32,293 bases of DNA. Origin: a virus. Under the pieces are notes generated by a model. It saw only the letters and a program-made list of their open reading frames with translations. It was not told where the DNA came from and searched no databases. The position numbers and the translations under genes were made by a program. The stretch lies in the IMG/VR virus record IMGVR_UViG_3300032293_001670, positions 1 through 32,293 of that record; one strand, written 5' to 3'. The stretch's first letter is position 1, and each line of letters begins with the position of its first letter. Below, one piece after another: positions 9,808 through 32,271 of the stretch.

Positions 9808-11658
9808 ATGGACATCACGCAGCAAATTCTATCAGAAATTACGGTATACAATAAGTACGCAAAATATCTACCAGAATTTAAAAGACGTGAAACGTGGAAT
9901 GAAATAGTTACAAGAAATAAGGAAATGCACCAACAAAAGTTTCCTTCTTTATTTAATGAAATCGAAGACGTTTATAAACTCGTATATGATAAAAAGATTC
10001 TTCCGTCAATGCGTTCAATGCAATTTGCAGGAAAACCCATTGAAATTAATAATGCTCGTATATTTAACTGCTCTTTTGCTCCTATTGATGACTGGCGTGT
10101 ATTTTCAGAAGTAATGTTTCTTCTTTTAGGAGGTTGCGGTGTAGGATATTCAGTTCAACATCATCACATAGATCAACTTCCTGAGATTATTAAGCCAATT
10201 AAAGAAAAACGTTTCTTAGTTGGAGACTCTATTGAGGGTTGGGCTGATGCAATTAAAATATTGATGAAGTCGTATCTTGTAGGTGGACCTAGACCTAAAT
10301 TTGATTTTCGTGACGTTAGACCTAAAGGCGCAATGTTAATTACAGCAGGAGGTAAAGCTCCTGGTCCTGAACCTTTAAAAGAGTGTTTATTCCAAATACA
10401 AAAAATTCTCGATCGTAAAGAAACTGGTGATAAATTAAAGCCAATTGAATGCCATGATATTATTTGCTATATTGCAGATGCAGTATTATCTGGTGGTATT
10501 CGTCGTGCGGCTTTGATTAGCTTATTCTCTTTCAATGATGAAGAAATGCTTACATCTAAGTTTGGTAACTGGTGGGAACAAAACCCCCAAAGAGGGAGAG
10601 CTAACAACTCAGCAGTTATACTTCGTGATCGAATTCAAAAAGAAGAGTTCATGGATCTTTGGAAAAAGATTGAATTGTCTAATGCAGGTGAGCCTGGATT
10701 TTTCTTAACTAACGACAAAGATTGGGGAACTAATCCATGTGCCGAGATTGCACTTAGACCATTCCAATTCTGTAACCTGTGTGAAGTTAATGTATCCAAT
10801 CTTGAGTCTCAAGAAGATCTAAATAAAAGAGCTAAAGCTGCAGCATTTATCGGTACTCTTCAAGCTTCATATACAGACTTTCATTATCTCCGTGATATTT
10901 GGAAAAAAACAACAGAAAAAGATGCGTTAATTGGCATTGGCATGACAGGTATTGCGTCAGGTGCCGTGTTAAAATTAAACATGAAAGAAGCTGCTCAAAT
11001 AGTAAAAGAAGAAAACGAAAGACTTGCAAAAGTTATTGGAGTTAATAAAGCTGCAAGATGTACAACAGTTAAGCCTTCAGGAACAACATCAATGGTTCTT
11101 GGTACTTCATCGGGAGTACATGCTTGGCATGATAATTTCTATATTCGTAGAATGAGACTTGGTAAAAATGAAGCTCTTTATACATACCTTTCTATTTATC
11201 ATCCTGAATTAGTAGAAGACGAATACTTCAAGCCACAATCACAAGCTGTAGTATCTGTTCCGCAAAAATCTCCTGAAGGAGCAATTACAAGATCTGAATC
11301 TGCAGTTGATCTACTTCATAGACTTGAAAAACTACATAAAGAGTGGATTAAACCAGGACATAGAACAGGACGCAATACTCACAATGTATCAGTAACTATT
11401 TCTCTTAAACCAGAAGAGTGGCCGGAAGTTGGTGAATGGGCATGGGCAAATAGAAATAACTATACTGCATTATCATGTCTACCTTATGACAATGGTTCTT
11501 ATGTTCAAGCTCCTTTTGAAACTATCACTAAAGAAAAATTTAATGAGATTGTTGGTAAACTTCATGAAGTAGATCTTAGTAAAGTAGTTGAAGTTGAAGA
11601 TAATACTGATCAAAAAGGTGAATTAGCCTGCGCAGGAGGTGCTTGTGAAATCATCTAA
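9808..11658 (+). CDS. nrdJ: Class II (adenosylcobalamin-dependent) ribonucleotide reductase
   Basis: A 616-residue monomeric-type class II RNR. The active-site loop NPCAEI supplies the thiyl-radical Cys311 and Glu313. Cys88 (in FNCSF) and Cys322 form the internal redox pair; the 11-residue spacing from Cys311 equals that of C408/C419 in the Lactobacillus leichmannii enzyme. The C-terminal CAGGAC (Cys608, Cys613) is the swinging pair reduced by thioredoxin. It is shorter than the ~739-residue Lactobacillus enzyme, and no N-terminal ATP-cone is evident. It makes deoxynucleotides without oxygen or a NrdB subunit, but needs host B12 cofactor. No class I genes are in the window. The thioredoxin at 27786 may reduce it. 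Its 3' end contains the ribosome-binding site and start of the next gene. Confidence 0.88.
   Translation: MDITQQILSEITVYNKYAKYLPEFKRRETWNEIVTRNKEMHQQKFPSLFNEIEDVYKLVYDKKILPSMRSMQFAGKPIEINNARIFNCSFAPIDDWRVFSEVMFLLLGGCGVGYSVQHHHIDQLPEIIKPIKEKRFLVGDSIEGWADAIKILMKSYLVGGPRPKFDFRDVRPKGAMLITAGGKAPGPEPLKECLFQIQKILDRKETGDKLKPIECHDIICYIADAVLSGGIRRAALISLFSFNDEEMLTSKFGNWWEQNPQRGRANNSAVILRDRIQKEEFMDLWKKIELSNAGEPGFFLTNDKDWGTNPCAEIALRPFQFCNLCEVNVSNLESQEDLNKRAKAAAFIGTLQASYTDFHYLRDIWKKTTEKDALIGIGMTGIASGAVLKLNMKEAAQIVKEENERLAKVIGVNKAARCTTVKPSGTTSMVLGTSSGVHAWHDNFYIRRMRLGKNEALYTYLSIYHPELVEDEYFKPQSQAVVSVPQKSPEGAITRSESAVDLLHRLEKLHKEWIKPGHRTGRNTHNVSVTISLKPEEWPEVGEWAWANRNNYTALSCLPYDNGSYVQAPFETITKEKFNEIVGKLHEVDLSKVVEVEDNTDQKGELACAGGACEII
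11634..11640 (+). promoter_or_regulatory. Shine-Dalgarno sequence inside the RNR 3' end
   Basis: AGGAGGT, a full anti-SD match, sits 4 bases before the GTG at 11645 and decides that start over the GTG at 11639. It is unusual here, because most genes in the window have no SD. It also encodes part of the RNR redox tail, so partial coincidence cannot be excluded. Confidence 0.45.
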
Positions 11659-11851
11659 AGAATTTATAGAAGGAATTCACTATTATTTAGAAAATGGAAG
11701 GGTGGTTTTTACCACTCTTTTCCATTTACAACGTGGATCATGTTGTGGTTCAAAGTGTAGGCATTGTCCATATGATCCAGAGTATATAAAGGGTACTACA
11801 AAGAAAAAAGATAAAAATTCGGAAGAAAATTTTATATTTGATAAAACATAG
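11645..11851 (+). CDS. Small cysteine-rich DUF5522-like protein
   Basis: A 68-residue protein (from GTG 11645) with FHLQRGSCCGSKCRHCPY in the middle. The same cysteine-dense core, preceded by an EGIHYYLENGRVVFT-type strand pair, characterises the DUF5522 family, common in Bacteroidota chromosomes, where it is a stand-alone small protein of unknown role. Four Cys plus His could bind zinc or an iron-sulfur cluster. The gene overlaps the last 14 bases of the RNR gene, suggesting translational coupling and perhaps a redox role linked to nucleotide reduction; that role is inference. A GTG at 11639 is an alternative start. Confidence 0.7.
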   Translation: MKSSKEFIEGIHYYLENGRVVFTTLFHLQRGSCCGSKCRHCPYDPEYIKGTTKKKDKNSEENFIFDKT

Positions 11852-14554: not shown

Positions 14555-14875
14555 ATGAAAAAAACACTTATAATTTTATTCTTAGTATCTTTATCAAGTT
14601 GTTTTATAACTGAACCAACAGGTTACATAGACTATAGACAAAGAAGAATGTATGATTGGGATCCAATCTACGTAGTACCAGGATATATAGATCCTTTCTT
14701 TTATAGAAGAGAACCTCCGATTATAATTTATAGAGATAGGCCTATTCCTAGACAACCTCAACAACCTAGGAGAAATACATTCGGACCAACTGCCCCACCA
14801 TCTGCTCCAAGAAGTCCTAAAACTGCACCAATAAGAGAGTTTCCTAGAAAAAAGATAATTGACTTTAAAGATTAA
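14555..14875 (+). CDS. Small proline-rich lipoprotein
   Basis: A 106-residue protein with a short basic N-terminus, a hydrophobic core and a lipobox LSSC (cleavage before Cys16). The mature part begins with a Tyr/Arg-rich stretch (YIDYRQRRMYDWDP) and ends with a Pro/Arg/Gln-rich region, likely extended. Bacteroidota lipoproteins are often placed on the outer membrane. Starting 12 bases after the polymerase gene, it is probably expressed early or middle. A surface role such as blocking superinfecting phages is possible but unproven; a spanin-type role is less likely because the lysis genes are 13 kb away. Confidence 0.6.
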   Translation: MKKTLIILFLVSLSSCFITEPTGYIDYRQRRMYDWDPIYVVPGYIDPFFYRREPPIIIYRDRPIPRQPQQPRRNTFGPTAPPSAPRSPKTAPIREFPRKKIIDFKD

Positions 14876-14991: not shown

Positions 14992-15423
14992 ATGGGAACA
15001 TTTAGACCATTTGAGCTCGACCCATTTGATTTATTATGGCGAGACTTATTCGAAAACAATTCACGATTCTCTGCAATTACGCAGAAAGTAACACATCCAG
15101 TAGACATTTACGAAACACCTAGTGGCATTAAATTTGAAGTAGCCGCTGTAGGTCTTGATTCAAAAGATATCGATATTCAAATCGATAATGATCAACTTCG
15201 TATTAAGTACGAAAAGCCTCAAGTAGAAAGTGAAGAGGCAGTCATTTATAAAGGTATCAAACGTTCTAGCTTTGATTTAACTTGGAAAATTAGTACTAAG
15301 TTTGATCTTTCTAAACTAGAAGCGCAGTTAGATAAAGGTCTTCTTACTTTGGATATTCCAACTGCTGAAGGTAAAGCAATAAGAAAGATTGAGATCTCAA
15401 CCCCAAAAAAACAACTAAAATAA
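14992..15423 (+). CDS. Small heat-shock protein, Hsp20/alpha-crystallin family
   Basis: A 143-residue protein with a short hydrophobic N-terminal arm (RPFELDPFDLLWRDLF), an alpha-crystallin beta-sandwich from about residue 35 (HPVDIYETPSGIKFEVAAVG) to about 126, and the diagnostic LDKGLLTLDIP block standing for A-x-x-x-n-G-v-L. The C-terminal I-x-I anchor is represented by IEIS. It is an ATP-independent holdase that would keep phage or host proteins from aggregating. It heads a chaperone island with GroES and GroEL. The gene is bracketed by a 12-bp inverted repeat, and its 70-base leader after the left arm has no SD. Confidence 0.85.
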   Translation: MGTFRPFELDPFDLLWRDLFENNSRFSAITQKVTHPVDIYETPSGIKFEVAAVGLDSKDIDIQIDNDQLRIKYEKPQVESEEAVIYKGIKRSSFDLTWKISTKFDLSKLEAQLDKGLLTLDIPTAEGKAIRKIEISTPKKQLK

Positions 15424-15436
15424 GTTACAAATAAAA

Positions 15437-15448
15437 GGCCTACCTACA
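15437..15448 (+). repeat. Right arm of 12-bp inverted repeat flanking hsp20
   Basis: GGCCTACCTACA is the perfect reverse complement of 14921-14932. It lies 13 bases after the hsp20 stop and 7 bases before the next ATG. In an mRNA the two arms could pair and close the hsp20 message into a loop. Confidence 0.7.
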
Positions 15449-15455
15449 ACCAGTT

Positions 15456-15650
15456 ATGTTTCAATTACACAGAAATTTCATTAACATTAATGGAGACTTG
15501 TTTGAAATCAAAAGAACTCTAAAAGAAGAGTTTATGCAAGGTAAAAATCTTGATGATTTTAAAACATGGTTTGGAGTAGACGCAGTCTTTAAAAAAGATG
15601 CCTTACTCTATTTTTGTATTAAAGTAGATGAATTAGAAATATTAAATTAG
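15456..15650 (+). CDS. Small hypothetical protein in chaperone island
   Basis: A 64-residue soluble protein with an N-terminal strand pair (MFQLHRNFININGDLFEIKR), a central helix, and a C-terminal strand (ALLYFCIKVDELEIL). No family is recognised. It starts with GTTATG directly after the right arm of the hsp20 inverted repeat and ends 4 bases before the GroES-like gene, so it is co-expressed with chaperones. Its presence could reflect a chaperone partner or simply operon packing. Confidence 0.5.
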   Translation: MFQLHRNFININGDLFEIKRTLKEEFMQGKNLDDFKTWFGVDAVFKKDALLYFCIKVDELEILN

Positions 15651-15654
15651 CAAT

Positions 15655-15945
15655 ATGAATAAAATAACCCCACTAAATGGCTATATAGTATTAAAGCCAA
15701 TCGAAAGCGAAGAAGAAACATTTGGTAATATTATCATTCCTGATCTTGGTAAAGAAAGACCTGAGATGGGAAAAGTAGTAGCAACATCCAATGTTTATAA
15801 TTACAACACAGACAAACTAGTTATCTCGACTCTTGAAGAAGGAGAGACTGTATTAATCCCTAAACTTGGTTCACAAAGAATCGTATTTGAAGGACAAGAC
15901 TATTTCATTTGTAAAGAATCAGATATTTTAGGAGTTATTGAATAA
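15655..15945 (+). CDS. groES: Co-chaperonin GroES (Cpn10)
   Basis: A 96-residue protein of normal Cpn10 length. Strand LNGYIVLKPIESEEE leads into the mobile loop TFGNIIIPDLGKERPEMG, whose III tripeptide replaces the usual I-V-L that docks to GroEL. VVATSNVYNYN follows, then GETVLIPKLGS, and the ending DYFICKESDILGVIE is the typical l-i-x-r-e-x-D-I-L-g-v close. It caps the phage GroEL encoded 13 bases downstream, and perhaps the host GroEL too, as T4 gp31 does. Confidence 0.85.
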   Translation: MNKITPLNGYIVLKPIESEEETFGNIIIPDLGKERPEMGKVVATSNVYNYNTDKLVISTLEEGETVLIPKLGSQRIVFEGQDYFICKESDILGVIE

Positions 15946-15958
15946 AATAAAAAAGACT

Positions 15959-17590
15959 ATGAGTACAACAAAAAACGTTTTTGGAACAGAGCTTAAAGAA
16001 AAGTTACTTTCCGGTATAGAAAAGTTAAATCAATCAGTATCATCAACATTAGGTCCTGGTGGTCGCACAGTATTAATTCGTGAACAAAATGGTGAAGTTA
16101 AAGTTACAAAAGATGGTGTAACAGTAGCTAAAGCATTTCATAAACTTGAAGATGATATTGAAGATCTTGGTGCACAACTTGTTAAGCAAGTTAGTATTAA
16201 ATCTGCAAATGAAGCAGGTGATGGTACAACAACATCTACACTTCTTGCTACTGAAATGATTAAACAAGGTCTTAAAGAAATTCGTCAAGGCGTTAACGCT
16301 GTTGAGATTAAGAATGAGATTGACAATATCGTTAATGAAGTAGTAAAAGAAATTAAAGAATTAGCAACAGAAATTTCTTCAGAAGAGCAAATTAAACAAG
16401 TTGCAACTATCTCAGGTAATAATGATCCTGAAGTTGGTAACTTAATTGCTGAAGCACTTGATAAAGTAGGTCGTGAAGGTGTAGTAACTATTGAAGAATC
16501 TAAAACTGGTGAAACTACATTAGAGATTGTTGAAGGTATGCAATTTGATCGTGGTTACAAATCACCTTACTTTGTAACTAACAATGTAACAATGCAATCT
16601 GTGCTTGATAATCCATATATTCTTTTATATGATGGACGTATTTCAACTGCACAAGAGTTGTTACAAGTATTGACTAAAGCAAATTCAGAGAATAGACCTT
16701 TATTAATTATCGCTGAAGATATTGGTGATGAAGCTCTTGCTACATTAATTGTAAATAAAATGCGTGGTATTGTACAAGTTTGCGCAGTTAAAGCACCAGA
16801 CTTTGGTGAGCGTAAAACATTAATCTTAGAAGATATTGCTATCTTGACAGGTGGACAAGTTATTTCTAAAGATAAAGGTTTGAAGCTTGATAAATTATCT
16901 ACACAGCAACTCGCTCAATATCTTGGTACAACAAGACTTGTAACTGTATCTAAAGAAGAGACTACTATTATTGATGGTAAAGGTAATGAGAGAGCGATTG
17001 AAGTTAGAGCAGAAGAAATAAAAGAGCAAATTGAAAAAGCTACATCGTTCTACGAGAAAGAGAAGTTGCAAGAAAGACTTGGTAAGTTGATTGGTGGTGT
17101 TGCAATTATTTCTGTAGGTGGTAATAGTGATATTGAGATTAGAGAAAAGAAAGATCGTGTAGAAGATGCATTATTTGCAACTAAAGCAGCTCTTGCTGAC
17201 GGTATCGTACCTGGTGGTGGTGCAACACTTTATAGAGTAGCACTTAATCATAGAGCAGAAAGCAATAGCAATGTAGCAATCGCTAGAGATATTGTTTGCA
17301 ATGCTTTACAAGCACCATTTATTAAGATTTTATCTAATGCTGGTGTAGAAGACTGGTGGAATTATATTCCAAGCGAATTAGTAAAAAATAAAATTTATGA
17401 TGCAAAGAATCATAAAATGGTAGATGCGTTTGAATCAGGCATCATTGATCCAGCTAAAGTTGTTATTACAGCACTTAAGAATGCAACATCAGTAGCAGGA
17501 ACTATTTTGACAACTGAATCTGTTGTATTTGAAAAGAAAGAAAAAAATGACAAGTCAGATCCTATGATGGACATGACTATGGGAATGTAA
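15959..17590 (+). CDS. groEL: Chaperonin GroEL (Cpn60)
   Basis: A 543-residue full-length chaperonin. Equatorial ATP site: TLGPGGRTV near 28-36, GDGTTT near 84-89 with the catalytic Asp, DRVEDAL with the hydrolytic Asp, and [10 protein letters not shown]. Apical domain: [23 protein letters not shown] and helix residues for GroES and substrate binding. It ends in a Met-rich [10 protein letters not shown] tail, like the GGM repeats of bacterial GroEL. The ATG at 15959 is chosen because GroEL proteins begin close to this point; an in-frame TTG at 15938 would overlap groES. A complete phage-encoded GroEL/ES pair suggests that phage proteins, probably capsid subunits, need a dedicated folding chamber. 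Confidence 0.9.
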
Positions 17591-17610: not shown

Positions 17611-18540
17611 ATGAAAGCAGCCGTAGTAGGTATGCTCAATAATGTTGGTAGTAGCCAAAGCCATCACGGCGGCGGCTATTATCATGTTATGTTGAACATA
17701 CTAAAATCAGAACACCCAGGAGATTTAGATGTTAATCCAGATCCTTCAACATGGAATGAATATGAAAGACTCTACATTCTAGAAGGAGTTAACTATCAAG
17801 AGAACGTATTCAATTTTATTGGAGGACCACAACCTGAACATAGAGCTAAGCTTGAAGCTATGGCTAATTATAAAGGTTTAGCTATTGCAGTTAATGTTCC
17901 TATTGATCTTAATGTGTTCAATAAAAGATTTAATATTGATCATCAGTTTACTGCAATCAACTGTATTGACTTTGCTAGACTACATGCAAATAATACAAAG
18001 AAGTTAGTAAGAGGTGATTCTCATTCGCTTAGTGCATGGAGACCTGGTTTTGGTCTTGATAGAACAGACGGTAAAACTTTGTTTGGATTCTTAAAAGATG
18101 CTGACTCTTTAATTGAAGAGTGGAATCAAAAATATGACGAAGTAGTTATTTACTTTGGTAATATTGATATTCGTTTTCACTTAATGAGGCAAGATAATCC
18201 TGCTGAAGCAGTAGGAAGTCTTATTAGGCGTTATGTAGAGTTTGCTAAGAAACTAAATAATGCAACTCTAGTTAATTTGTTACCAGTTGAGCATGAAAGT
18301 CGTAAATTACCTGGTACAGGTTTGTATCTCAAACAACCTTATTTTGGTACAAGACAAGAAAGAGCAAGGTTAGTAGATACAGCAAATAGGATCATGAATA
18401 ATTCAGGACTTAAAACACTTCAATGGCCAAATGAATGGATTGATGAAGATGGAATAAAAATGTTTGAATACATGGAACCTAAGCAATCAGTACACTTAAA
18501 GCCTAAATATTATATGTTCGCAAACGAATTTGTAAAATAA
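17611..18540 (+). CDS. SGNH/GDSL-like protein in a putative base-modification operon
   Basis: A 309-residue protein. The C-terminal part has an SGNH-hydrolase-like block order: GDSHS (135-139, block I, nucleophile Ser137), YFGNIDIRFH (181-190, similar to block III G-x-N-D), and SVHLKPKYY (293-301, similar to block V with catalytic His). The N-terminal ~130 residues (VGMLNNVGSSQSHHGGGYYH) form an unrecognised region ending in AIAVNVPIDL. There is no signal peptide, so it acts in the cytoplasm, on a nucleotide, DNA adduct or acyl substrate. Its stop overlaps the next start as TAATG at 18540, and a PLP-enzyme gene follows, so all three probably serve one pathway. The hydrolase activity itself is inferred from motifs only. 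Confidence 0.5.
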   Translation: MKAAVVGMLNNVGSSQSHHGGGYYHVMLNILKSEHPGDLDVNPDPSTWNEYERLYILEGVNYQENVFNFIGGPQPEHRAKLEAMANYKGLAIAVNVPIDLNVFNKRFNIDHQFTAINCIDFARLHANNTKKLVRGDSHSLSAWRPGFGLDRTDGKTLFGFLKDADSLIEEWNQKYDEVVIYFGNIDIRFHLMRQDNPAEAVGSLIRRYVEFAKKLNNATLVNLLPVEHESRKLPGTGLYLKQPYFGTRQERARLVDTANRIMNNSGLKTLQWPNEWIDEDGIKMFEYMEPKQSVHLKPKYYMFANEFVK

Positions 18541-19583
18541 TGCAAAAATTTATTATCAACGAAAAGTTACTTGACGCATTAGATGAATACGATAAACGTA
18601 GTTTATTAATGCAACAACATGGTAGTCTTAAGCTTCCTTATGATGGAGACTTACTTGCAGATGTTAATGACGATTTAATTTATCATGTGCCTATTTATGA
18701 TACTGCGCATCGTAGATTTGCAGCATTCTGCGCTTTTACTGAAGCCGTATGGTATAAAGAAAAAGACTTAAGAGGAATGGGTAATCACTTTACACATCAT
18801 GATATAAAAGATGAGTTTGATTGGTTTATGCTATTCTATTTATTTAGACTAAGTGGTTCTGGTATTAATTACGTACCTAGATATAAAACAGATCATATCA
18901 AGGACATCCTGGGTACGCATGGTTTCGGTAATTTCTGGATTGTAGATTCTATATTAAAAGAAAGATATACATGGCCAGAATGGAAAGAAGACCTTAGAAA
19001 CCGCATCACGCCTTTTACAGATAATAAAGGATACTTACTTCCACAATTCACTTTTGAAGGCGAGACTAGAGGACACTTAAGACGTTTTATTCTTGAACAC
19101 TCAGAAGGTTTAGTTAGACATATTTATGAAGCTGTTACTACTAAAAGATTAGATATCTATCAAGTAACAGATATTGGTAATGAATATCTTAATAGTGTTG
19201 GATTTAAAAAACAAAACTTCGTATTAACTGCATTTGCTGCTGACTTAGGTGAATATTTTCCTAATATGGTAAATCCTAAAGGTTGGGTATATGCAGGAAC
19301 AAATGCTATCCGTTGCATCAAAGCTATTTTTCCTAAAGTTAGTCCTAAAGTAAAAGAGTTTGAGTATATTAATGAAGTACTACAATTCCTATCTAATAGA
19401 TATAATTTGAATCCAATTGATTGTGAAGATAGTAGAGCTTGTGACGTAGTTCGTTATTTCCAAGAATATCAATCTGAAGATCATATTATTAAAAATAACG
19501 GTCGTAGGATGTATAATAATTCTATTCTTAAACAAACATGGGGTCATGATAAGTATTATGACTTTGCAACCAAACTAAAATAG
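18540..19583 (+). CDS. Putative DNA-base hypermodification enzyme (aGPT-PPlase / hmU kinase helical domain-like)
   Basis: A 347-residue, apparently all-alpha protein. Blocks FYLFRLSGSGINY (114-126), THGFGNFW, a GFKKQNFVLTAFAADLGEYF segment followed by GWVYAGTNAIRCIKAIFP, and IDCEDSRACDVVRYFQEY resemble the helical helix-hairpin-helix-like superfamily. That family includes alpha-glutamyl/putrescinyl-thymine pyrophosphorylases and the helical domain of 5-hydroxymethyl-dU DNA kinases, which replace a hydroxymethyl group on a base in phage DNA with larger moieties. I rely on pattern memory, not a search. Position between an SGNH-like gene (1-base overlap) and a PLP-enzyme gene (2-base gap), near TS paralogues, supports the idea. 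Confidence 0.45.
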   Translation: MQKFIINEKLLDALDEYDKRSLLMQQHGSLKLPYDGDLLADVNDDLIYHVPIYDTAHRRFAAFCAFTEAVWYKEKDLRGMGNHFTHHDIKDEFDWFMLFYLFRLSGSGINYVPRYKTDHIKDILGTHGFGNFWIVDSILKERYTWPEWKEDLRNRITPFTDNKGYLLPQFTFEGETRGHLRRFILEHSEGLVRHIYEAVTTKRLDIYQVTDIGNEYLNSVGFKKQNFVLTAFAADLGEYFPNMVNPKGWVYAGTNAIRCIKAIFPKVSPKVKEFEYINEVLQFLSNRYNLNPIDCEDSRACDVVRYFQEYQSEDHIIKNNGRRMYNNSILKQTWGHDKYYDFATKLK

Positions 19584-19585
19584 TT

Positions 19586-20470
19586 ATGTTCATAAATAAA
19601 GCAACTGATCAATCAAATTTAGACATGGCAGATGGTAGAGATTTAAATTACTATCTTGAAATGACTAAAGATTATAAGCCCGATTTTGACTTTTCAATAA
19701 AACAAATAGATGGTTACAATGTAATTGATGATGGAGAGTTTCAATATGGAAGTAAAGCAAAGATGGGTGACTTCATGATCAGTCAAGTAAAAGAAGATAC
19801 ATTAGTTTATGTTGCACCAAGAACAGGCTACGCTCCATATTCACTTACATATCTTGCAAAGAAGTACAATAAAAAACTTGTACTACTTATGCCAGCATCT
19901 AAAGAAGCTTCTGAACATCAACTACGAGTTATTGAAGATGGTGCGACTCCAATATTCTTAAAGACTCCTGCAATGCCAACTATAAATGGTTGGGCAAAAG
20001 AGTTCGCACAAAAAATTGGCGCAAAGTATTTACCGTTTGGTCTTAAGCATGAACAAGTTGTAGCCGGTGGAGTTAAGATATTTCATGAAGCATTTAAAGA
20101 TAAAAACATAGATGAACTATGGACAGTATTTTCAACAGGAGTTTTATCTAGAACGCTTCAGATTGCACTTCCAGATACTAAATTTAATGCAGTAGCAGTT
20201 GCAAGAAATGTGCAACCAGGTGAATTAGGTAGAGCTAAATTTTATGCGTATCATAAAGAGTTCCTTAAAGATTGTGACATCGATACTCCATTTGATTGTA
20301 TCAAAACCTATGATGCAAAAGGTTGGGATTATATGAAACGTTATGGTCACTCTGGAAATTGGTTTTGGAATGTTGCTAGAAATATGCCTAAGCCTACAAT
20401 TAAACCAAGTGATGTAGACTCTCAAAGAGAGTGGGGTGATAAGTCTGATATTATTAAGTACTTAGGATAA
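19586..20470 (+). CDS. PLP-dependent fold type II enzyme-like protein
   Basis: A 294-residue protein resembling the tryptophan-synthase-beta/ACC-deaminase superfamily. DGEFQYGSKAKMGDF (49-63) parallels the G-G-N-K-x-R-K-L signature, making Lys57 the likely Schiff-base lysine. APRTGYAPYSLTYLAKKYNK then KLVLLMPASKE and a DGATPIFL strand follow the usual cofactor-domain order. VFSTGVLSRTL may be the phosphate-binding loop. In known phage thymidine-hypermodification pathways PLP enzymes process an amino acid attached to the base; the operon context suggests something similar here. A free amino acid substrate is the alternative. It starts as TAGTTATG, the G coming from the preceding stop codon. 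Confidence 0.55.
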   Translation: MFINKATDQSNLDMADGRDLNYYLEMTKDYKPDFDFSIKQIDGYNVIDDGEFQYGSKAKMGDFMISQVKEDTLVYVAPRTGYAPYSLTYLAKKYNKKLVLLMPASKEASEHQLRVIEDGATPIFLKTPAMPTINGWAKEFAQKIGAKYLPFGLKHEQVVAGGVKIFHEAFKDKNIDELWTVFSTGVLSRTLQIALPDTKFNAVAVARNVQPGELGRAKFYAYHKEFLKDCDIDTPFDCIKTYDAKGWDYMKRYGHSGNWFWNVARNMPKPTIKPSDVDSQREWGDKSDIIKYLG

Positions 20471-23394: not shown

Positions 23395-23586
23395 ATGTTT
23401 ATAATTTATGCAATCGCTTTCGCTCTACTAGCAGCACTTGTATGGCTGTGGGTAGGAGGTATTGACTATATGAAGAAAAACCACCCTGATTATAAAGGAG
23501 AAGACTTTTTAGATGAAAGAGAAGCTGTAAACAGAGTAGCAGGTAGGGAGATGGCCGATGAAAACATCTACGACGAAATATACTAA
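23395..23586 (+). CDS. Small conserved phage membrane protein
   Basis: A 63-residue protein with one N-terminal membrane span (IIYAIAFALLAALVWLWV) and a cytoplasmic-type tail containing GIDYMKKNHPDYKGEDFLDE. The M-K-x-N-H-P-D-Y-K-G-E-D-F-L-D element is very similar to a small protein I associate with T4-like and other large phages. Function unknown; a possible membrane regulator. The gene overlaps the next by 29 bases. Confidence 0.6.
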   Translation: MFIIYAIAFALLAALVWLWVGGIDYMKKNHPDYKGEDFLDEREAVNRVAGREMADENIYDEIY

Positions 23587-23881
23587 ACAATTAAATATGG
23601 TAAAGGTTTTAACTACGGCTGTCATAGTAGCTATGGCAATGCTATTTATTCAAGTTTATTTTACATCATCTTCACAAAAGCAACTAAAAGAAGTTCAATC
23701 AATTTGTGATAGTTTACAAACTAGAGTACTACAAGCAGAAAATTTTGCTGATAGTATTAAAAGCGAATTATTCGTATATGAAACTCAATTAAATCGTTAT
23801 TATATTGCTCTTGAGATGTTAGAAAATGAAAACTATGCCGCAGCATCTGAATTTAATAAACGCTTATCAATGACTGAATAA
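23558..23881 (+). CDS. Small single-span membrane protein with coiled coil
   Basis: A 107-residue protein with a membrane segment (about residues 17-36, VLTTAVIVAMAMLFIQVYF) followed by a charged coiled coil (QKQLKEVQSICDSLQTRVLQ) extending to the C-terminus. No family is recognised. It overlaps the upstream small membrane protein gene by 29 bases and the thymidylate synthase gene by one base (TAATG at 23881). It may work with the preceding membrane protein; no direct evidence. Confidence 0.5.
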   Translation: MKTSTTKYTKQLNMVKVLTTAVIVAMAMLFIQVYFTSSSQKQLKEVQSICDSLQTRVLQAENFADSIKSELFVYETQLNRYYIALEMLENENYAAASEFNKRLSMTE

Positions 23882-24944: not shown

Positions 24945-25241
24945 ATGGATGGTGACATAATGAATAAAGAATTTTGGATGAATCCACCCAACCTAAATAA
25001 AAAAGATTTAACTCCTGGACACTATCTTGAATTGATAGATCGCTTGCATGTTATTATGTGCAATATACAAGAGCACTGTATAGAACATCCAGTAGCAGAA
25101 AAACATAAAGATCTTCAATTTAAATTAGAGTATGCACTAGGACAATTATGGGATGCTTACCAAGAAGTAGGTAAATTAGATCATGAAAATAATTATCCAA
25201 CTTGTGTTAATGTAGCTATGACTGATGGGATTGATGGATAA
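24945..25241 (+). CDS. Hypothetical protein overlapping the tail-fibre gene tail to tail
   Basis: A protein of about 98 residues (ATG 24945; ATG 24960 is equally possible, and a TTG at 24921 would overlap the thyA stop). The core is helical (PGHYLELIDRLHVIMCNIQE, then KDLQFKLEYALGQLWDAYQEV), with two Cys and two His in CNIQEHCIEH. No family is recognised. Its last 49 bases lie on the opposite strand of the tail-fibre gene's end, so transcription converges here. Confidence 0.5.
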   Translation: MDGDIMNKEFWMNPPNLNKKDLTPGHYLELIDRLHVIMCNIQEHCIEHPVAEKHKDLQFKLEYALGQLWDAYQEVGKLDHENNYPTCVNVAMTDGIDG

Positions 25242-26629
25242 TTTCCTGAAGCCGGATCATAGGCTAAAATCATATTTGTATCAGCAGCTTGCCATATTAT
25301 TTCTAGATAATCTCCAGCATTCATAGTATCAACATAATTCCATGCTGCAATAAATCTACCACTACCACCTGCTTGCTTTAATACATCAAGACTTGTATTA
25401 GAACGAGGTACATTAGATCCATTCTTTTTAAACCAAATATACACAATATCTACTCCATTATCAGTCTTTTCTAATTGAGCAGAAAATTGTAGATTATATA
25501 CTCCTTTATTAGCAACAGTAATTCTACTTCCACTTACTATAGAAACACCATTAGAATGTTCTGTAGTTTCTAATTGCATAGAACGAGATACATTACCAAC
25601 TGGATTTGATTGTGACCCAGTAGAACAAAATGCTCCATAAAATCCAAAATTACCATTTGATCCTGAAGTCCAAAATCCTCCAGAAACTGCAAGAGTAGAT
25701 AAAGGAACAGCAGTACTTCTATTTGATGAGTTACCTAACCAAACATAATTTTGTTGTAAAGAAGCAGATAATGCTCCACTTACAAACAAACCACTCGCAT
25801 CTATTTGAGCAGTTAAAACTCGCGTAGTATTACCTAATGGTGAATTAAAAAATCTAAAAGCAGTACCAAAACTTGAAGTTGTAAAATTTTCAAGTGCAAT
25901 TACATCAATTGATGTTGGTGCAGTTGTTAAACTAGCAGACATTGTAAATCCATATTCAGGACCAGTCCATCCAATAGAACTAATTCTACTAAGTGTATCA
26001 TTAGATTGTACGGGTAAAGGACTTGCTACCGTTCCTCTTGCTTTTCTACCTACATATGCTGCGAATGCTGTGGTTCCAAATGCGTCACTTGTAATTCTAG
26101 AGCTTACACCATCGTTACTTGTTAAATGTAGTAATCCTCCGGCGTTGGTTATTGGTTGGTAAGAACCAGATGTGTTTCCTATAATACTTAATGCACCAAT
26201 ATCTCCAGCAGGAATATTTGGCACTTTTATTTGAATTCTTGCAGTTTCAGATATTTCAAATGGTATAATCGAACCACTTTTTAATTGAAAACCTGCAGCT
26301 TCAATTGTTACATTACCGTCTGCATTTGATATATTTGCTCTTCTACCACCAGGAATATCACTTTCAATATTAATTGAACCAGATTGTAAATAGATCTCTC
26401 TAAATGGTTGAGTTAAAGATCCTAAGTTTGCTCCTTGAGGAGTTGTAGGAACTATATCTCCAGAAAAAGTACCTCCACTTGCTGTAAGAGGTAAATTAAA
26501 AGTAAATATACCTCTTCCTAAGTCTCCAGCAGTTATTTTTTCTGTAGTGCCTCCTTGTACGATGGGTAAAATATCACTTTGAGAAGCAACTGAGGCTGAT
26601 GGGAGTCCTGATATCGGTAAATCTGGCAT
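25193..26629 (-). CDS. Tail fibre / receptor-binding protein with C1q/TNF-like tip
   Basis: A 478-residue protein encoded against all its neighbours. The N-terminus (LPISGLPSASVASQSDILPI, then VQGGTTEKITAGDL) is the widespread phage fibre/structural entry motif. The middle is a Ser/Thr/Gly-rich beta-structured shaft with repeats of tail-fibre style (GANLGSLTQPFREIYLQSGS). The last ~140 residues (KGVYNLQFSAQLEK, YIWFKKNGSNVPRS, NAGDYLEIIWQA, then PSIPSVIATLTQVG) follow the C1q/TNF-like jelly-roll pattern used for receptor binding. It probably forms a trimer on the virion and determines host range. The companion gene at 26634 lies 4 bases upstream on the same strand. Confidence 0.75.
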   Translation of the reverse strand: MPDLPISGLPSASVASQSDILPIVQGGTTEKITAGDLGRGIFTFNLPLTASGGTFSGDIVPTTPQGANLGSLTQPFREIYLQSGSINIESDIPGGRRANISNADGNVTIEAAGFQLKSGSIIPFEISETARIQIKVPNIPAGDIGALSIIGNTSGSYQPITNAGGLLHLTSNDGVSSRITSDAFGTTAFAAYVGRKARGTVASPLPVQSNDTLSRISSIGWTGPEYGFTMSASLTTAPTSIDVIALENFTTSSFGTAFRFFNSPLGNTTRVLTAQIDASGLFVSGALSASLQQNYVWLGNSSNRSTAVPLSTLAVSGGFWTSGSNGNFGFYGAFCSTGSQSNPVGNVSRSMQLETTEHSNGVSIVSGSRITVANKGVYNLQFSAQLEKTDNGVDIVYIWFKKNGSNVPRSNTSLDVLKQAGGSGRFIAAWNYVDTMNAGDYLEIIWQAADTNMILAYDPASGNYPSIPSVIATLTQVG

Positions 26630-26969: not shown

Positions 26970-27170
26970 ATGACATACGAACAAAGACGCGACTTACTAC
27001 TTAAAACAATGAGAAAGCAAACAGATCATTGGCTTAAAGAAGATCAATACGCAGACTGGGAAAAAAAGAATAAACCTAAACAAACTTATACTTTTAAGCC
27101 TAAAAGGTATATTAGGACAAAAGATATTTATAATAAAGAATGTTTAGAACATTATTATCCGCAGCGTTAG
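26970..27170 (+). CDS. Small basic hypothetical protein
   Basis: A 66-residue protein, very rich in Lys, Arg, Tyr and Trp (LLLKTMRKQTDHWLKEDQYA, then a KKNKPKQTYTFKPKRYIR stretch). No membrane segment or recognised fold; the composition suits nucleic-acid binding. It is the first plus-strand gene after the inverted tail-fibre block, and its 3' end overlaps the secreted nuclease gene by 31 bases, so the two are probably co-translated. Confidence 0.45.
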   Translation: MTYEQRRDLLLKTMRKQTDHWLKEDQYADWEKKNKPKQTYTFKPKRYIRTKDIYNKECLEHYYPQR

Positions 27171-27784
27171 TTCTTTTTCTTAGTGTTTCATTAAAAGCAC
27201 AAGATACAGTAAGATTAGTTCATAAACAGTACACTAGTGTATTTTCAAAATCATTAAAGTATCCAGTGTTAGTTGAGTGGTGGGTAACAAAAGAAAAGGT
27301 ATCATGTTTTAAATTAATACCAAGACAAGATAGGTTTGCACCAGATCCTCTTCTTTTCGCGTATACTGACTTAGCTAGTGATTACGTTGGATCGGGATAT
27401 GATCGCGGCCACATGGCTCCAGCAGCCGATAATCAATGTTCAGGACAAGATGCTATGATAGAATCATTTTATTTTTCTAACATGGCTCCACAATATGGGC
27501 AATTAAACAGAGGAGATTGGAAAACTTTAGAAATGAAAACTAGAGAATTAGCCAAGTCTTTAGACTCAGTTAAAGTATGGACAGGATCAGTAGGTGAGAA
27601 AAGAAAAATAGGAAAAGTATCTGTTCCTGATAAATGTTGGAAAGTTATTTATATAAAGAGTAAAAATGAATGGCAAGCTTATATATTTGAAAATGATCAG
27701 TCTAAAGCTGATGGAATAGAAAATAATAAAGTAGACATAAAAGAAGTAGAAAAATTAACTAACTTTAAATTTAAAATAGATTAA
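27140..27784 (+). CDS. Secreted DNA/RNA non-specific endonuclease (DRGH, Serratia-nuclease family)
   Basis: A 214-residue protein with a Sec signal peptide (FRTLLSAALVLFLSVSLKAQ; cleavage near 20). The beta-beta-alpha-metal core shows GYDRGHMAPAADN, with catalytic His91, then FYFSNMAPQ and LNRGDW, where Asn123 should hold Mg2+. These are the marks of the NUC1/Serratia nuclease family, which cuts DNA and RNA without sequence preference. The signal peptide places it in the periplasm or outside. Possible roles are destruction of incoming competitor DNA, release of nucleotides, or loosening of extracellular DNA at lysis. The nuclease identity is well supported; the purpose is inference. Confidence 0.85.
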   Translation: MFRTLLSAALVLFLSVSLKAQDTVRLVHKQYTSVFSKSLKYPVLVEWWVTKEKVSCFKLIPRQDRFAPDPLLFAYTDLASDYVGSGYDRGHMAPAADNQCSGQDAMIESFYFSNMAPQYGQLNRGDWKTLEMKTRELAKSLDSVKVWTGSVGEKRKIGKVSVPDKCWKVIYIKSKNEWQAYIFENDQSKADGIENNKVDIKEVEKLTNFKFKID

Positions 27785-28250: not shown

Positions 28251-28850
28251 ATGGATATAAACAAGTTAAAGGGTCACATCCCTGATGCTGTTATTACACA
28301 GCTACCGGACACAATTGCTAAATTTGAATTAAATACCCCACTCCGTCTAGCGCATTTTCTTGCTCAAGCAGGCCACGAATCAGGTGGATTTAAAGCAGTT
28401 AACGAAAATTTAAACTACGGAGCAAAAGGTCTATTAGGTATATTTAAGAAGTACTTTCCAACAGAAGAAAAAGCTAAATTGTACGAGCGTAAGCCAGAAA
28501 AAATTGCTAACCTAGTTTACGGAGCTAGAATGGGTAATGGCCCTGAGGCTTCTGGAGAAGGTTGGAAATTTCGTGGTCGTGGCTATATTCAATTAACTGG
28601 AAAAGATAACTACAAAGCATTTGATGCAGTAGTTACAGAATCAATTATAGACAATCCAGATTTAGTTGCTACTAAATATCCTTTATTGTCTGCTGCATGG
28701 TTTTTCCACAAAAATGGTCTTCATAAAATTGCAGATCAAGGTGCTACAGATGCTGTAGTTACTTCAGTTACTAAAAGAGTAAATGGTGGTACCATAGGTC
28801 TTCCTGACAGAATCAAGCATTTCAAAGAGTACTATAACTTATTGAAGTAG
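28251..28850 (+). CDS. Endolysin, glycoside hydrolase family 19 (chitinase-like)
   Basis: A 199-residue protein consisting of one GH19 lysozyme-type catalytic domain. HFLAQAGHESGGF carries the likely acid catalyst Glu43; EGWKFRGRGYIQLTGKDNY (103-121) is the diagnostic substrate-cleft block; VTKRVNGG (173-180) closes it. In phages this family cleaves the peptidoglycan glycan strand at lysis. No signal peptide, so release depends on a holin; a two-span holin candidate follows 47 bases downstream. It is separate from the virion-borne lysozyme domain at the left end of the window. Confidence 0.87.
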   Translation: MDINKLKGHIPDAVITQLPDTIAKFELNTPLRLAHFLAQAGHESGGFKAVNENLNYGAKGLLGIFKKYFPTEEKAKLYERKPEKIANLVYGARMGNGPEASGEGWKFRGRGYIQLTGKDNYKAFDAVVTESIIDNPDLVATKYPLLSAAWFFHKNGLHKIADQGATDAVVTSVTKRVNGGTIGLPDRIKHFKEYYNLLK

Positions 28851-28897: not shown

Positions 28898-29176
28898 GTG
28901 AGATCAAAACAATCTTTTTTTGTCAAGTTGTTTAAAGACAACAATGACATTAATGAAAAGTCTGTAGTAGGCTTTTTAGCTTTCATAATGATGGTGGCAT
29001 TTGCATTAGCAGATATTGTAACTGGTTATTTAGGTAAGCCATTAGTAATCAACGATTTTATATTTGATGCATTCATGTGGTTAGTATTAGGATGCTTTGG
29101 TATAGCTTCAATTGATAAGTTCGTGAATAAAAAAGCTGGCGCTAAAGAAGAAGAGTCAGTAGAGGAGGTGTTATAA
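28898..29176 (+). CDS. Putative holin (two membrane spans)
   Basis: A 92-residue protein beginning with GTG. A basic N-terminus (RSKQSFFVKLFKDNND) is followed by membrane segments at about 23-46 (VVGFLAFIMMVAFALADIVT) and 53-72 (FIFDAFMWLVLGCFGIASID), then a Lys-rich and acidic tail. Size, two spans and position directly after the endolysin fit a class II-type holin. No in-frame ATG gives the whole first helix, which is why the GTG is chosen. Its last codons contain the SD of the next gene, and its stop overlaps that start. Confidence 0.55.
   Translation: MRSKQSFFVKLFKDNNDINEKSVVGFLAFIMMVAFALADIVTGYLGKPLVINDFIFDAFMWLVLGCFGIASIDKFVNKKAGAKEEESVEEVL
29163..29169 (+). promoter_or_regulatory. Shine-Dalgarno sequence inside the holin-like gene
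   Basis: AGGAGGT with a 6-base spacer before the ATG at 29176; it decides the start of a 41-codon gene. Full SD sequences are otherwise rare at starts in this window. Confidence 0.5.
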
Positions 29177-29573: not shown

Positions 29574-30053
29574 TTGAAGAACTTTTTATTGGGACTGTGC
29601 TTACTTTTGAGCGCAGTCTCTTTTTCTCAAGACACTAAGATTTATGTTGGAGACGTATCTAACAATATTAAGATAGGTGCTTTAGCAGGAAATAAAAATT
29701 TAGTTTTAGGAGTAAAAAATATAGCAGAAGAAGCTATAATGGATAAAGGTTATTCTATAGTAGGAAAAAATGATTCTACTTATAAAATTAGTTTTGAAGT
29801 TGTTTATTTTGATGTTTTGCAAACTAGTGCTGGTGTTAGTGTGTTTCATAAAAATGACAACGAGACCATTATTAGGATTAAAGGAGTTTTAACCAAAAAC
29901 GGAAAGAAAGTTAAGGAATACTTAGCAACAGGTAAATCTTCTGAAATTTCTACTTCTACGATGATAATAGATGAAGGAGGCGGTTTTAATCAAGCGTCAG
30001 CTCGTTCTGCCCTCAAGAAAACTATTATAAACGTAATTGAAACCGTACTATGA
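29574..30053 (+). CDS. Exported protein of unknown function
   Basis: A 159-residue protein that must start at TTG 29574 to include a full signal peptide (KNFLLGLCLLLSAVSFSQ; cleavage near 19, typical Bacteroidota S-x-S-Q ending). The mature domain is alpha/beta (TKIYVGDVSNNIKIGALAGN, ILTKNGK-type hairpins, a final SARSALKKTIINVIETVL helix). A pattern of strand-helix then GYSIVGKNDSTYKISFEVVY resembles small periplasmic outer-membrane-associated folds, but I cannot name a family. It overlaps the following T9SS-tail gene by 4 bases, so the two exported proteins are probably made together. Confidence 0.55.
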   Translation: MKNFLLGLCLLLSAVSFSQDTKIYVGDVSNNIKIGALAGNKNLVLGVKNIAEEAIMDKGYSIVGKNDSTYKISFEVVYFDVLQTSAGVSVFHKNDNETIIRIKGVLTKNGKKVKEYLATGKSSEISTSTMIIDEGGGFNQASARSALKKTIINVIETVL

Positions 30054-31945
30054 AAAAACTATTAACGCTGCTCGCAGTATTAATTAGTTATGCTTCTTTT
30101 GCTCAACAACCTTCAATTGGACACTTCCAACAGTTAGCAACAGTTAAAAGAGGTGATACTCTTGATGTTGCTTGGTATTATCAACCTGTTGCTAGTAGAG
30201 ATGTTCGCACATTCCAGGTTGACTTTCAATATAAGAAAAGATTGTTAACTCACGTTGCAACTACTGTTGATGTAGCATTTGCTACTCAAACTCCTTATAT
30301 TGATTATAAGCAATTTGATAATTCTAAATACTCAGGCTATACTGCAGGTAATTATACCTACACTTCTGATACTGCTTGGACTGTAGCTCGTAATTATTTA
30401 ATTTTAGCTAGTGGTAATCAAATTGGATCTCAAGCCTACATTATACACAACAAGTATAAAATTAACTCAGTAGAAGCAAACTTTGCTTCTGATTCTATTA
30501 CAATTAACTGGGCTAGATTGTTTACTCAAGACGGTAATACAATAGGAGATAATGTAGCTAATCTTACTAATAAGAGTATGTCCGTATTCTTAAAAGGTAA
30601 CTTAACTATCTCAGGTAAAATATGGATTGCTGCTAATATGACTTCTAAACCAACAATATTAGCAATTGATCCAACTACAGGTATAGTAGCATCAAGTGTA
30701 GCTCCTGATCCTCAAGGTAATTACACATTAGATAATATTGAACAAAATACAAGATATAAAATACAAGCGTTATTCCCAGCTAATGATCTAACAACAATTA
30801 GAGATAATGCGGTAACAATATCTGATGGTGCTAAAGTATATGATGAATTTGTTAATACAGATGTAAATCAAGTATATACAAGACAATACTTAAAATCAGG
30901 ATTGAGTTACTTACAAGCTGATATCAATAAAAGTGCTGGATTAGATGGTGGTGATGCTTATGGTATTTATGCTTCTGTAGCTGGTTTAAAACCAATTGAT
31001 ACCGCAGGACTAATTAAATTGTTTACTGCTACTGAATATGATAATTTAGTATTAGGTGAAAATCAATGGTCATCTTGGCCTGCATTCTTAGATAGATTAA
31101 ATTTTGTTTATGATAGTATAGGCACAACTAATCTTGTAGTTAACCTTAAGTATGCAATTAAAGGCGATGTAAATAGAAGCCATTCATCACCTGTATTTGA
31201 TGCTAATAATCAAGAAGTAGTAGCATTTAATACTATAGGTAATTTAAATGTTAATATACCTAATACATTTGCTAATGTAGGTGAGCCATTATATGTTCCA
31301 ATGAATGTTAGTACAAACGGACTTCAAAATGCAGCACTTCAGTTTGAAATGACTTATGATAGAACTAAAGTAAAATTTGAAGAGATTGTATCTAATATTC
31401 AAGGTCCATGGTTACAATATGTAAATCATGATGCACAAACAGGAACTATTCGTTTTGGTGGTATGAATAACCAAAATACAGGATATATAACTGGTAATTA
31501 CATGCCATTTAAACTTAAGTTCTCTCCTATAGGTAACAATGATATTACTAGCTATATTAAAATTCGTAAGTTAATGGATGCTGCTGATCAAAATGGAGAT
31601 AGATTTAATATCGTACTTCAATCAGATGTAGTAGCATTATCTAATAGAAGAATTCCTGGATATTATAATGGAAGTAATGAAGAGGTAGTTACATCAATCC
31701 GTCCTAATCCAAACAATGGTATGTTTGAATTAGTAATTACTTTCCCTAGAAATAACATGAATATGAATGCTATGATATTTGATGTAACTGGACGCCCAGT
31801 TAAAGACTTAGGTAAACTATCAAGCAATGAATATGCATTAACAGCAAATTATAAAATAGATGCTACCAATTTAAGACAAGGTAACTACTATTTATCAATG
31901 ACAGATCAAAAGAAAATCATTACTAAACCCTTTTTAATACTTTAA
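30050..31945 (+). CDS. Exported multidomain protein with type IX secretion C-terminal sorting domain
   Basis: A 631-residue protein. Signal peptide 1-19 (LLTLLAVLISYASFAQ). About 183-260 resembles a carboxypeptidase-regulatory/Cna-B-like beta-sandwich (LTISGKIWIA...GNYTLDNI). Two dockerin-like half-sites follow: DINKSAGLDGGDAYGIY (291-307) and KGDVNRSHS (371-379). About 400-510 is cohesin-like (GEPLYVPMNVSTNGLQNAAL, FEMTYDRTKVKFEEI). The last ~86 residues have the T9SS type A sorting-domain pattern: TSIRPNPNNGMFELVI, AMIFDVTGRPV, NLRQGNYYLSM, then IITKPFLIL. In Bacteroidota such a domain directs export through the outer membrane and usually attachment to the cell surface. A phage gene with this tail implies use of the host machinery. 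Adhesion or receptor masking are possible roles. Confidence 0.75.
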   Translation: MKKLLTLLAVLISYASFAQQPSIGHFQQLATVKRGDTLDVAWYYQPVASRDVRTFQVDFQYKKRLLTHVATTVDVAFATQTPYIDYKQFDNSKYSGYTAGNYTYTSDTAWTVARNYLILASGNQIGSQAYIIHNKYKINSVEANFASDSITINWARLFTQDGNTIGDNVANLTNKSMSVFLKGNLTISGKIWIAANMTSKPTILAIDPTTGIVASSVAPDPQGNYTLDNIEQNTRYKIQALFPANDLTTIRDNAVTISDGAKVYDEFVNTDVNQVYTRQYLKSGLSYLQADINKSAGLDGGDAYGIYASVAGLKPIDTAGLIKLFTATEYDNLVLGENQWSSWPAFLDRLNFVYDSIGTTNLVVNLKYAIKGDVNRSHSSPVFDANNQEVVAFNTIGNLNVNIPNTFANVGEPLYVPMNVSTNGLQNAALQFEMTYDRTKVKFEEIVSNIQGPWLQYVNHDAQTGTIRFGGMNNQNTGYITGNYMPFKLKFSPIGNNDITSYIKIRKLMDAADQNGDRFNIVLQSDVVALSNRRIPGYYNGSNEEVVTSIRPNPNNGMFELVITFPRNNMNMNAMIFDVTGRPVKDLGKLSSNEYALTANYKIDATNLRQGNYYLSMTDQKKIITKPFLIL

Positions 31946-31947
31946 TT

Positions 31948-32271
31948 ATGTCAGAAGAACTAGAACAACAAGATGGTACCTGGTCAGGTCTTAAGAAAAC
32001 TATCGTAGGTACATTAGGAACTGTAGTAGCTGGTGGCGGCGTATGGCTTAGCACCATACTATTTGGTGGAGATAAAGAAGAAGCAGTAGCAACTCCTGCA
32101 CCTGCTCAACCTTCTATTATTATCAATAATACTCAACAGCAACAACAAGCTACTTCAGGTGGTACAACTATTATTAAAGAAAGAGTAGTTGAAAAACCAG
32201 TTGAAAAGAAAGAAGCTCCTAAAAAGAAAAAAGAAGGCGACGAATTTAAAGAACAACCTGCACAATGGTAA
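31948..32271 (+). CDS. Small conserved phage membrane protein with charged tail
   Basis: A 107-residue protein. WSGLKKTIVGTLGTVVAGGG (12-31) leads into one Gly-rich membrane span ending VWLSTILFGGDKEE; this segment resembles a small phage protein I have seen repeatedly beside tail and lysis genes. A Pro/Ala linker, a Gln-rich stretch, then a Lys/Glu-rich tail (KKEAPKKKKEGDEFKEQPAQ) look disordered. Function unknown. It begins 2 bases after the T9SS-tail gene, so that gene lies within an ordinary phage operon. Confidence 0.6.
   Translation: MSEELEQQDGTWSGLKKTIVGTLGTVVAGGGVWLSTILFGGDKEEAVATPAPAQPSIIINNTQQQQQATSGGTTIIKERVVEKPVEKKEAPKKKKEGDEFKEQPAQW

Follow-up and report, generated by a model that had tools for sequence, protein, structure and literature searches.

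A type IX secretion sorting domain on a phage cohesin protein and the conserved gene module around it

In a viral DNA of 32,293 nucleotides (IMG/VR record IMGVR_UViG_3300032293_001670, positions 1 to 32,293; hereafter the window, meaning the whole stretch analysed), one gene encodes a cohesin protein whose C-terminal domain is, by sequence profiles and modelled fold, a genuine sorting domain of the type IX secretion system (T9SS) on a phage gene. The domain make-up of this protein, its signal peptide pattern, the fold of its sorting domain, the conservation of the gene module to which it belongs and the phage origin of that module were computed. We propose, with about an even chance of being right, that the T9SS route would lead to a surface-displayed cohesin protein, to which a surface structure built by the phage would be anchored.

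Results

Domain organization of the cohesin/T9SS protein

An earlier sequence-only reading of the window had reported an open reading frame at 30050-31945 of the plus strand, with a 4-base overlap upstream and a 2-base gap downstream. The frame is present and encodes 631 aa, and both junctions are correct (29574-30053 against 30050, and 31945 against 31948). The following features were assigned to it.

30050..31945, +: whole gene, cohesin and T9SS-sorting-domain protein of 631 aa, predicted to be exported (open reading frame, profiles, fold)
30050..30106, +: Sec-type signal peptide, residues 1-19 (MKKLLTLLAVLISYASFAQ), cleavage site inferred (hydrophobic peak, conservation of the pattern)
30107..30589, +: N-terminal beta-sandwich region, residues ~20-180 (beta strands in the AlphaFold model; conserved in 23 relatives)
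30590..30775, +: CarboxypepD_reg-like beta domain, residues ~181-242 (PF13620 in 12/20 relatives, best E 2.7e-4)
30899..31192, +: dockerin-like region ADINKSAGLDGGDAYGIYASVAGL ... GDVNRSHSS, residues ~284-381, common to the downstream lectin protein (phmmer)
31241..31648, +: cohesin domain, residues 398-533 (PF00963 above cut-off; fold)
31703..31942, +: T9SS type A sorting domain, residues 552-631, PNPNNG ... FDVTGRPV ... LRQGNYYL ... KKIITKPFLIL (PF18962, TIGR04183, PorU fold)

The Sec signal peptide claimed in the same reading appears as a Sec-like pattern with a hydrophobic peak at the N-terminus, where MKKLLTLLAVLISYASFAQ, followed by Q, is the hydrophobicity maximum of the protein (maximum KD 2.43 versus 1.63 elsewhere), and the succession of K/R, a hydrophobic stretch and A/S-Q recurs in 23/23 aligned relatives despite variable sequence. 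The AlphaFold2 model of the protein was built from an alignment of 20 relatives (mean pLDDT 66, pTM 0.35); because its quality is moderate, only single domains of it were used, and the fold comparisons drawn on here are those for residues 394-631. In this model, the cohesin domain (residues 398-533) resembles 6kge_A with Z 15.2 over 132 residues (rmsd 2.3), and PF00963 matches residues 400-495 with E 7.5e-6 and 26.6 bits against a cut-off of 24.1. The Dockerin profile matched none of the 20 relatives of the T9SS protein, and a PHROGs search with the protein gave no significant match.

For the C-terminal domain, read earlier as a T9SS type A domain, the profile search then suggested (TIGR04183/Por_Secre_tail) gave significant matches with both profiles, each above its curated cut-off: PF18962 (Por_Secre_tail) covers residues 552-628 (E 6.2e-8, 33.3 bits, cut-off 27) and TIGR04183 residues 552-630 of 631 (E 4.7e-6, 26.5 bits, cut-off 23). 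Residues 542-631 of the model superpose on the sorting domain of PorU from P. gingivalis (6za2_A, 1054-1156) with Z 10.1 and 22% identity (rmsd 2.5 A over 88 residues, where the block has a pLDDT of ~62-86); a Z of 10 is modest by itself for a small beta-sandwich, yet the predicted fold agrees with two independent profile libraries. The same tail, which had been proposed for a survey of other phages, was found in every related record examined: PF18962 matches exactly once per record in 25/25 related records, the cultured phage immuto included, and in 20/20 aligned relatives (best E 1.6e-10). The invariant residues of the fused domain (the NP of PNP, D29, G32, G62 and Y64, numbering in A8) fall at what we take to be the canonical T9SS motif positions. 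Comparison of the window with locus L004 gave a dN/dS of 0.09 for the body of the protein and 0.07 for the tag, that is, purifying selection in both; in most pairs more distant than this one, the tag drifts faster than the body. A tblastn search with the typical sorting domain of L128 found no further phages, tblastn being too weak for such short domains.

A conserved gene module

A contig whose T9SS protein is 99% identical to that of the window (L003) runs past the window end and gives the module order, which is conserved across loci: YajG-like exported protein, cohesin/T9SS protein, one-TM protein, second small TM protein, 241-aa exported protein, 417-aa exported protein and 477-aa exported C-type-lectin protein. 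The cohesin domain and the module, most of which lies past the window end, were absent from the sequence-only reading. The module genes beside the T9SS gene in the window, and the genes that precede them, are as follows.

27140..27784, +: exported DNA/RNA endonuclease (Endonuclease_NS) with signal peptide (PF01223, E 2.9e-43; often adjoins the module)
28251..28850, +: endolysin, GH19-type (PF00182, E 2.1e-7; often adjoins the module)
28898..29176, +: small hydrophobic, holin-like membrane protein near the module (sequence; position kept in several loci)
29574..30053, +: YajG-like exported protein, module gene (conserved; weak Lipoprotein_16 match, E 0.011)
31948..32271, +: small single-TM protein with the conserved C-terminus KKKEGDEFKExPxW, module gene (conservation across loci)

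The YajG-like gene overlaps the T9SS gene by ATGA, which would couple their translation. Possible neighbours of the module are the exported nuclease, the endolysin, and a thioredoxin or TonB-dependent-receptor-like protein.

The 241-aa protein (L003:10554-11279) is predicted to have the CsgG fold, its model (pLDDT 73) matching 7brm_A with Z 11.6 and the top Foldseek matches being CsgG chains (E 3.5e-6). This identity came from the fold search only and was not shown by sequence profiles against the PDB, where none of the profiles built for the CsgG-like, barrel and YajG-like proteins produced an informative match. A lipobox cysteine is present in none of the 17 aligned CsgG-fold sequences, the signal region ending in ..SQ/AQ, and because the N-terminal lipidated cysteine is missing, the protein is classed simply as a CsgG-like fold. 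Relatives of the CsgG-fold gene were found on at least 504 viral contigs (of 600 candidate viral stretches), and the module, which is common to hundreds of aquatic viral relatives, is therefore very widespread. The only clearly cellular relative among the matches listed is a lipoprotein from an Ignavibacteriales MAG (35% identity, L129:10001-11304); this lipidated relative adjoins YajG-like and CsgG-like genes and may represent a cellular source of the module.

The 417-aa protein has no profile match; its sequence suggests an outer-membrane barrel together with a long linker rich in Ser, Gly and Asn. The lectin protein contains a C-type lectin domain (PF00059, E 3e-6) and shares its end with the T9SS protein, namely, the dockerin-like segment and the GDxNxSHSS motif (phmmer 4.5e-12); Dockerin_1 scores 14.8 bits in it, below the cut-off of 22.9. 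Lectin-type genes (L005, L080 and L102, e.g., L102:4244 onward) vary widely in length and add-on domains, and the position ahead of the TM gene is at times taken by the lectin gene instead of the cohesin gene, which suggests that the lectin is a fast-changing payload. An exported TonB-dependent-receptor-like outer-membrane protein (Plug and OMP_b-brl_3) is encoded beside the module at L003:14044-15920, L006:2630-4882 and L102:10672-13155, and such a gene also adjoins the module in L115, L118, L120 and L122. PF14905 and Plug do match these proteins, PF00593, a model of the TonB-receptor barrel, has no match in 25 records, and no clear description of a phage TonB-dependent-receptor-like gene was found in the literature searched.

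Elsewhere in the window, chaperone genes occupy 14992-17590, comprising Hsp20 (14992-15423), a GroES-like frame recognized from sequence (15655-15945) and a full-length GroEL (15938-17590). They are followed at 17611-20470 by three consecutive genes (309, 347 and 294 aa) that match no Pfam family; they appear metabolic and could be part of a base-modification pathway. A 70-aa DUF5522 protein (11639-11851; PF17653, E 1.4e-19) overlaps the end of a ribonucleotide-reductase-like gene, and a Pro-rich lipoprotein (14555-14875) and a one-TM coiled-coil-like protein (23558-23881) are possible spanin partners, encoded far apart.

Fused and separate forms of the sorting domain

In distant relatives, the cohesin protein ends immediately ahead of where the sorting domain would begin, and its gene is followed by one for a lipoprotein of ~117-135 aa. 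This separate CTD-like gene has the cohesin (or lectin) gene directly on one side and the TM gene directly on the other. In a set of 79 unique CsgG-fold loci, drawn mostly from the loci nearest to the query rather than a census, 34 have the fused form, 34 the lipoprotein (3 without a clear lipobox) and the rest are unclassified. PNP is found near the end in 65/66 fused loci, and PF18962 is above cut-off in every record of the window clade. Most of the lipoproteins no longer contain PNP and do not reach the PF18962 cut-off; those of L095 and L126, with 26.1 and 24.4 bits (cut-off 27), are still recognizable. By hhalign, the fused domain matches the lipoprotein set including L095 and L126 with a probability of 91% (E 1e-6; controls gave <1%) and the diverged set A alone with 31% (E 5e-4). 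Its match to lipoprotein set B alone is not significant, nor is the link of the most diverged lipoproteins (A7) by itself, and sets A and B match each other with 94%, partly via the signal region.

The fused and lipoprotein forms are intermixed in the CsgG-fold tree, and L014 is 90% identical to L003 in the CsgG-fold protein and 57% in the T9SS protein, the corresponding values with L015 being 67% and 91%. From the mixed tree and these exchanges, the fused tag and the separate lipoprotein look like interchangeable ways of anchoring the cohesin protein. Stop-codon readthrough, considered for L095 where the cohesin and CTD frames are adjacent and in frame, was rejected because the second frame opens directly with a Met and a lipobox signal of its own, and also because the CTD frame is a different one elsewhere (e.g., L126 and L103). 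A rule confining the lipoprotein form to hosts that lack T9SS is not supported: L127 has the lipoprotein form and its MAG has SprA, with the caveat of MAG binning.

Phage origin and relatives

A scan of IMG/VR with the T9SS protein gave 35 loci, 34 of them (nearly) full length and 1 truncated, the full-length relatives being 52-99% identical. The view that the gene is not a host contaminant is borne out by these 35 viral loci with the same gene order and by immuto, a cultured Flavobacterium phage with a complete 160-kb genome (host Flavobacterium sp. LMO8), in which gp20-like and gp23-like capsid genes, terminase, tail sheath and tail tube are annotated. The immuto module lies at ~10.5-16.4 kb, far apart from the annotated head/tail block at ~97-150 kb, and its relative of the T9SS protein is split, gp014 being the front half and gp015 the cohesin and T9SS domain, with a signal peptide on each. 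In the genus of a Flavobacterium MAG, the CsgG-fold gene is present in 1/101 genomes, this one being the MAG that supplied the query, and in 0/100 others. In L128, the module adjoins tail-collar-like and endolysin genes. SprA exceeds its cut-off in 60/61 genomes from the genus to which Flavobacterium MAG G065 belongs, taken as a plausible host genus only, and also in the MAGs holding L127 and L128.

Discussion

From the results described above, we infer that the protein passes through T9SS and comes to lie on the surface, which partners it interacts with and what purpose it serves. In the proposed mechanism, the phage product would move by Sec into the periplasm, and the type A sorting domain would then pass it to the host T9SS, by which it would be fixed outside the infected cell. 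Placed there, its cohesin and dockerin-like domains may form a scaffold anchoring other products of the lysis-adjacent operon, the chief partner being the exported C-type-lectin/dockerin-like protein, which the surface cohesin could hold by its dockerin-like end. The CsgG-fold protein and the predicted outer-membrane beta-barrel would add to the outer membrane a second route or platform, this one made by the phage. The infected cell would thus have its surface remodelled, the likeliest benefit being the blocking of receptors and superinfection. The fused protein is most likely a T9SS cargo because the motif is kept and the domain is above the curated cut-off in fused copies, because the separate copies largely lack the motif and fall below the cut-off, and because T9SS is near-universal in the plausible host genus. 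Loss of PNP in the lipoproteins and its retention in the fused copies are expected if selection for sorting is limited to the latter. In Cellulophaga, T9SS adhesins have been proposed as phage receptors (PMC13288928), so that a phage cargo occupying T9SS or masking the surface may plausibly block superinfection.

The occurrence in many relatives of a separate lipoprotein and an untagged cohesin protein indicates that T9SS export of the cohesin protein is no general requirement of the module, and that the domain may also be an anchoring or docking part. Tentatively, a possible wider picture is that a large group of aquatic Bacteroidota phages has a self-contained surface-assembly system, by which a phage-made structure would coat infected cells, with the sorting domain as an interchangeable anchor. 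Its parts would be the CsgG-fold outer-membrane protein and its partner barrel, the lectin payload and the cohesin anchor, attached via the host T9SS or via a phage lipoprotein built from the same sorting domain; the export tag would have been turned into a lipoprotein by phages, or the reverse.

The chief rival to T9SS export of the cohesin protein, doubtful in our judgment but a serious contender, holds that the domain, though descended from a T9SS tag, now has a structural or docking role in an envelope complex of the phage, which stays in the periplasm or outer membrane and does not pass through the host T9SS. It would account for the separate CTD-like lipoprotein in 34/79 unique CsgG loci versus 34 fused, for the lipoproteins of L095 and L126 that score 26.1 and 24.4 bits with PF18962 and contribute to the hhalign match (91%, E 1e-6), and for the recombination of module genes with each other (L014 versus L003, 90% versus 57%). 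However, the canonical motif is kept in fused copies (PNP in 65/66) with PF18962 above cut-off, most lipoproteins are without PNP and below cut-off, and the A7 link alone is not significant. Ranking next, and unlikely, is a lysis function. The module would then serve to disrupt the outer membrane at lysis as a late complex, either spanin-like or pore-forming, in which the CTD lipoprotein or fused protein is the partner in the outer membrane and the small TM protein that in the inner membrane. Spanins consist of an o-spanin lipoprotein and an i-spanin with one TM segment, and the lipoprotein of the module is directly followed by a one-TM protein in a like arrangement; in addition, endolysin and small hydrophobic, holin-like genes lie within or next to the module, and the predicted CsgG fold could form an outer-membrane pore. 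Such a system leaves no obvious role for a 631-aa cohesin/sorting-domain protein, a C-type lectin and a TonB-dependent-receptor-like protein, and the window has another spanin-like candidate at 23558-23881 (one TM and coiled-coil-like sequence).

That the T9SS protein is a virion component, i.e., a fibre or decoration protein with Ig-like domains, seems quite improbable: the cohesin and Ig-like beta domains are adhesive and the window has a tail-associated gene (400-2589) and a fibre-like gene (25193-26629, minus strand), but the conserved Sec signal peptide is at odds with cytoplasmic virion assembly, and the immuto module is far from the annotated head/tail block. T9SS tags, TonB-dependent receptors and cohesins are common among bacterial genes; nevertheless, a host gene fragment or chimeric assembly is scarcely credible in view of a gene order that recurs in 35 viral loci and in the genome of cultured immuto, the latter practically refuting it, the presence of the CsgG-fold gene in 0/100 other genomes of the genus, and the position of the L128 module beside tail-collar-like and endolysin genes.

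The module context suggests that the phages rebuild the envelope of infected cells. If this is true, they borrow a host secretion machine found chiefly in Bacteroidota and add outer-membrane parts of their own, by a route to superinfection exclusion or cell aggregation undescribed for these phages in the literature searched. Since the cultured and annotated immuto has the same module, the idea of surface remodelling is directly testable, and the natural series of fused tag, lipoprotein with the motif and lipoprotein without it may point to the features needed for T9SS recognition.

The module is worth comparing with known systems. In 2020, T9SS type A sorting domains were reported on genes of Cryophage, whose authors proposed hijacking of the host T9SS, possibly for superinfection exclusion (PMC7468147, Nat Commun). 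The gene described here is likewise a phage gene with such a domain, whereas the Cryophage cargo is variable (endoglucanase, GH39 and PA14; PMC7468147) and here one cohesin/dockerin-like protein is conserved in a fixed module, with a lipoprotein alternative. T9SS sorting domains were also noted in 2019 on crAss-like contigs, one of them in a BACON-repeat frame (PMC6949934); these are gut contigs with the domains near head genes, and the accessible portion of that report describes no CsgG-fold, cohesin or lectin module. The same module is present in immuto (vB_FspM_immuto gp012-gp019, NC_055915), where gp017 is the CsgG-fold protein with 54% identity, the difference being that the T9SS protein is split (gp014 and gp015); its products are annotated only as cohesin-domain or hypothetical proteins. 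The CsgG curli secretion pore (4uv3 and 7brm) is alike in predicted fold (Z 11.6), but the module protein has neither a sequence-level match nor a lipobox, and no curli subunit was recognized nearby. Cellulosomal cohesin-dockerin scaffolds are alike in cohesin fold and profile, but no enzymes are recognized here and the dockerin-like regions are below cut-off. The open-access literature yielded no report of the module, of its CsgG-fold and barrel parts or of the tag/lipoprotein switch, which is weak evidence, and nothing on phage-encoded CsgG or on Flavobacterium phages with envelope modules. Altogether, T9SS-tagged phage proteins are already known (PMC6949934, PMC7468147), and what is new, as far as we have searched, is their context, namely, a conserved module and a switch between a fused tag and a lipoprotein.
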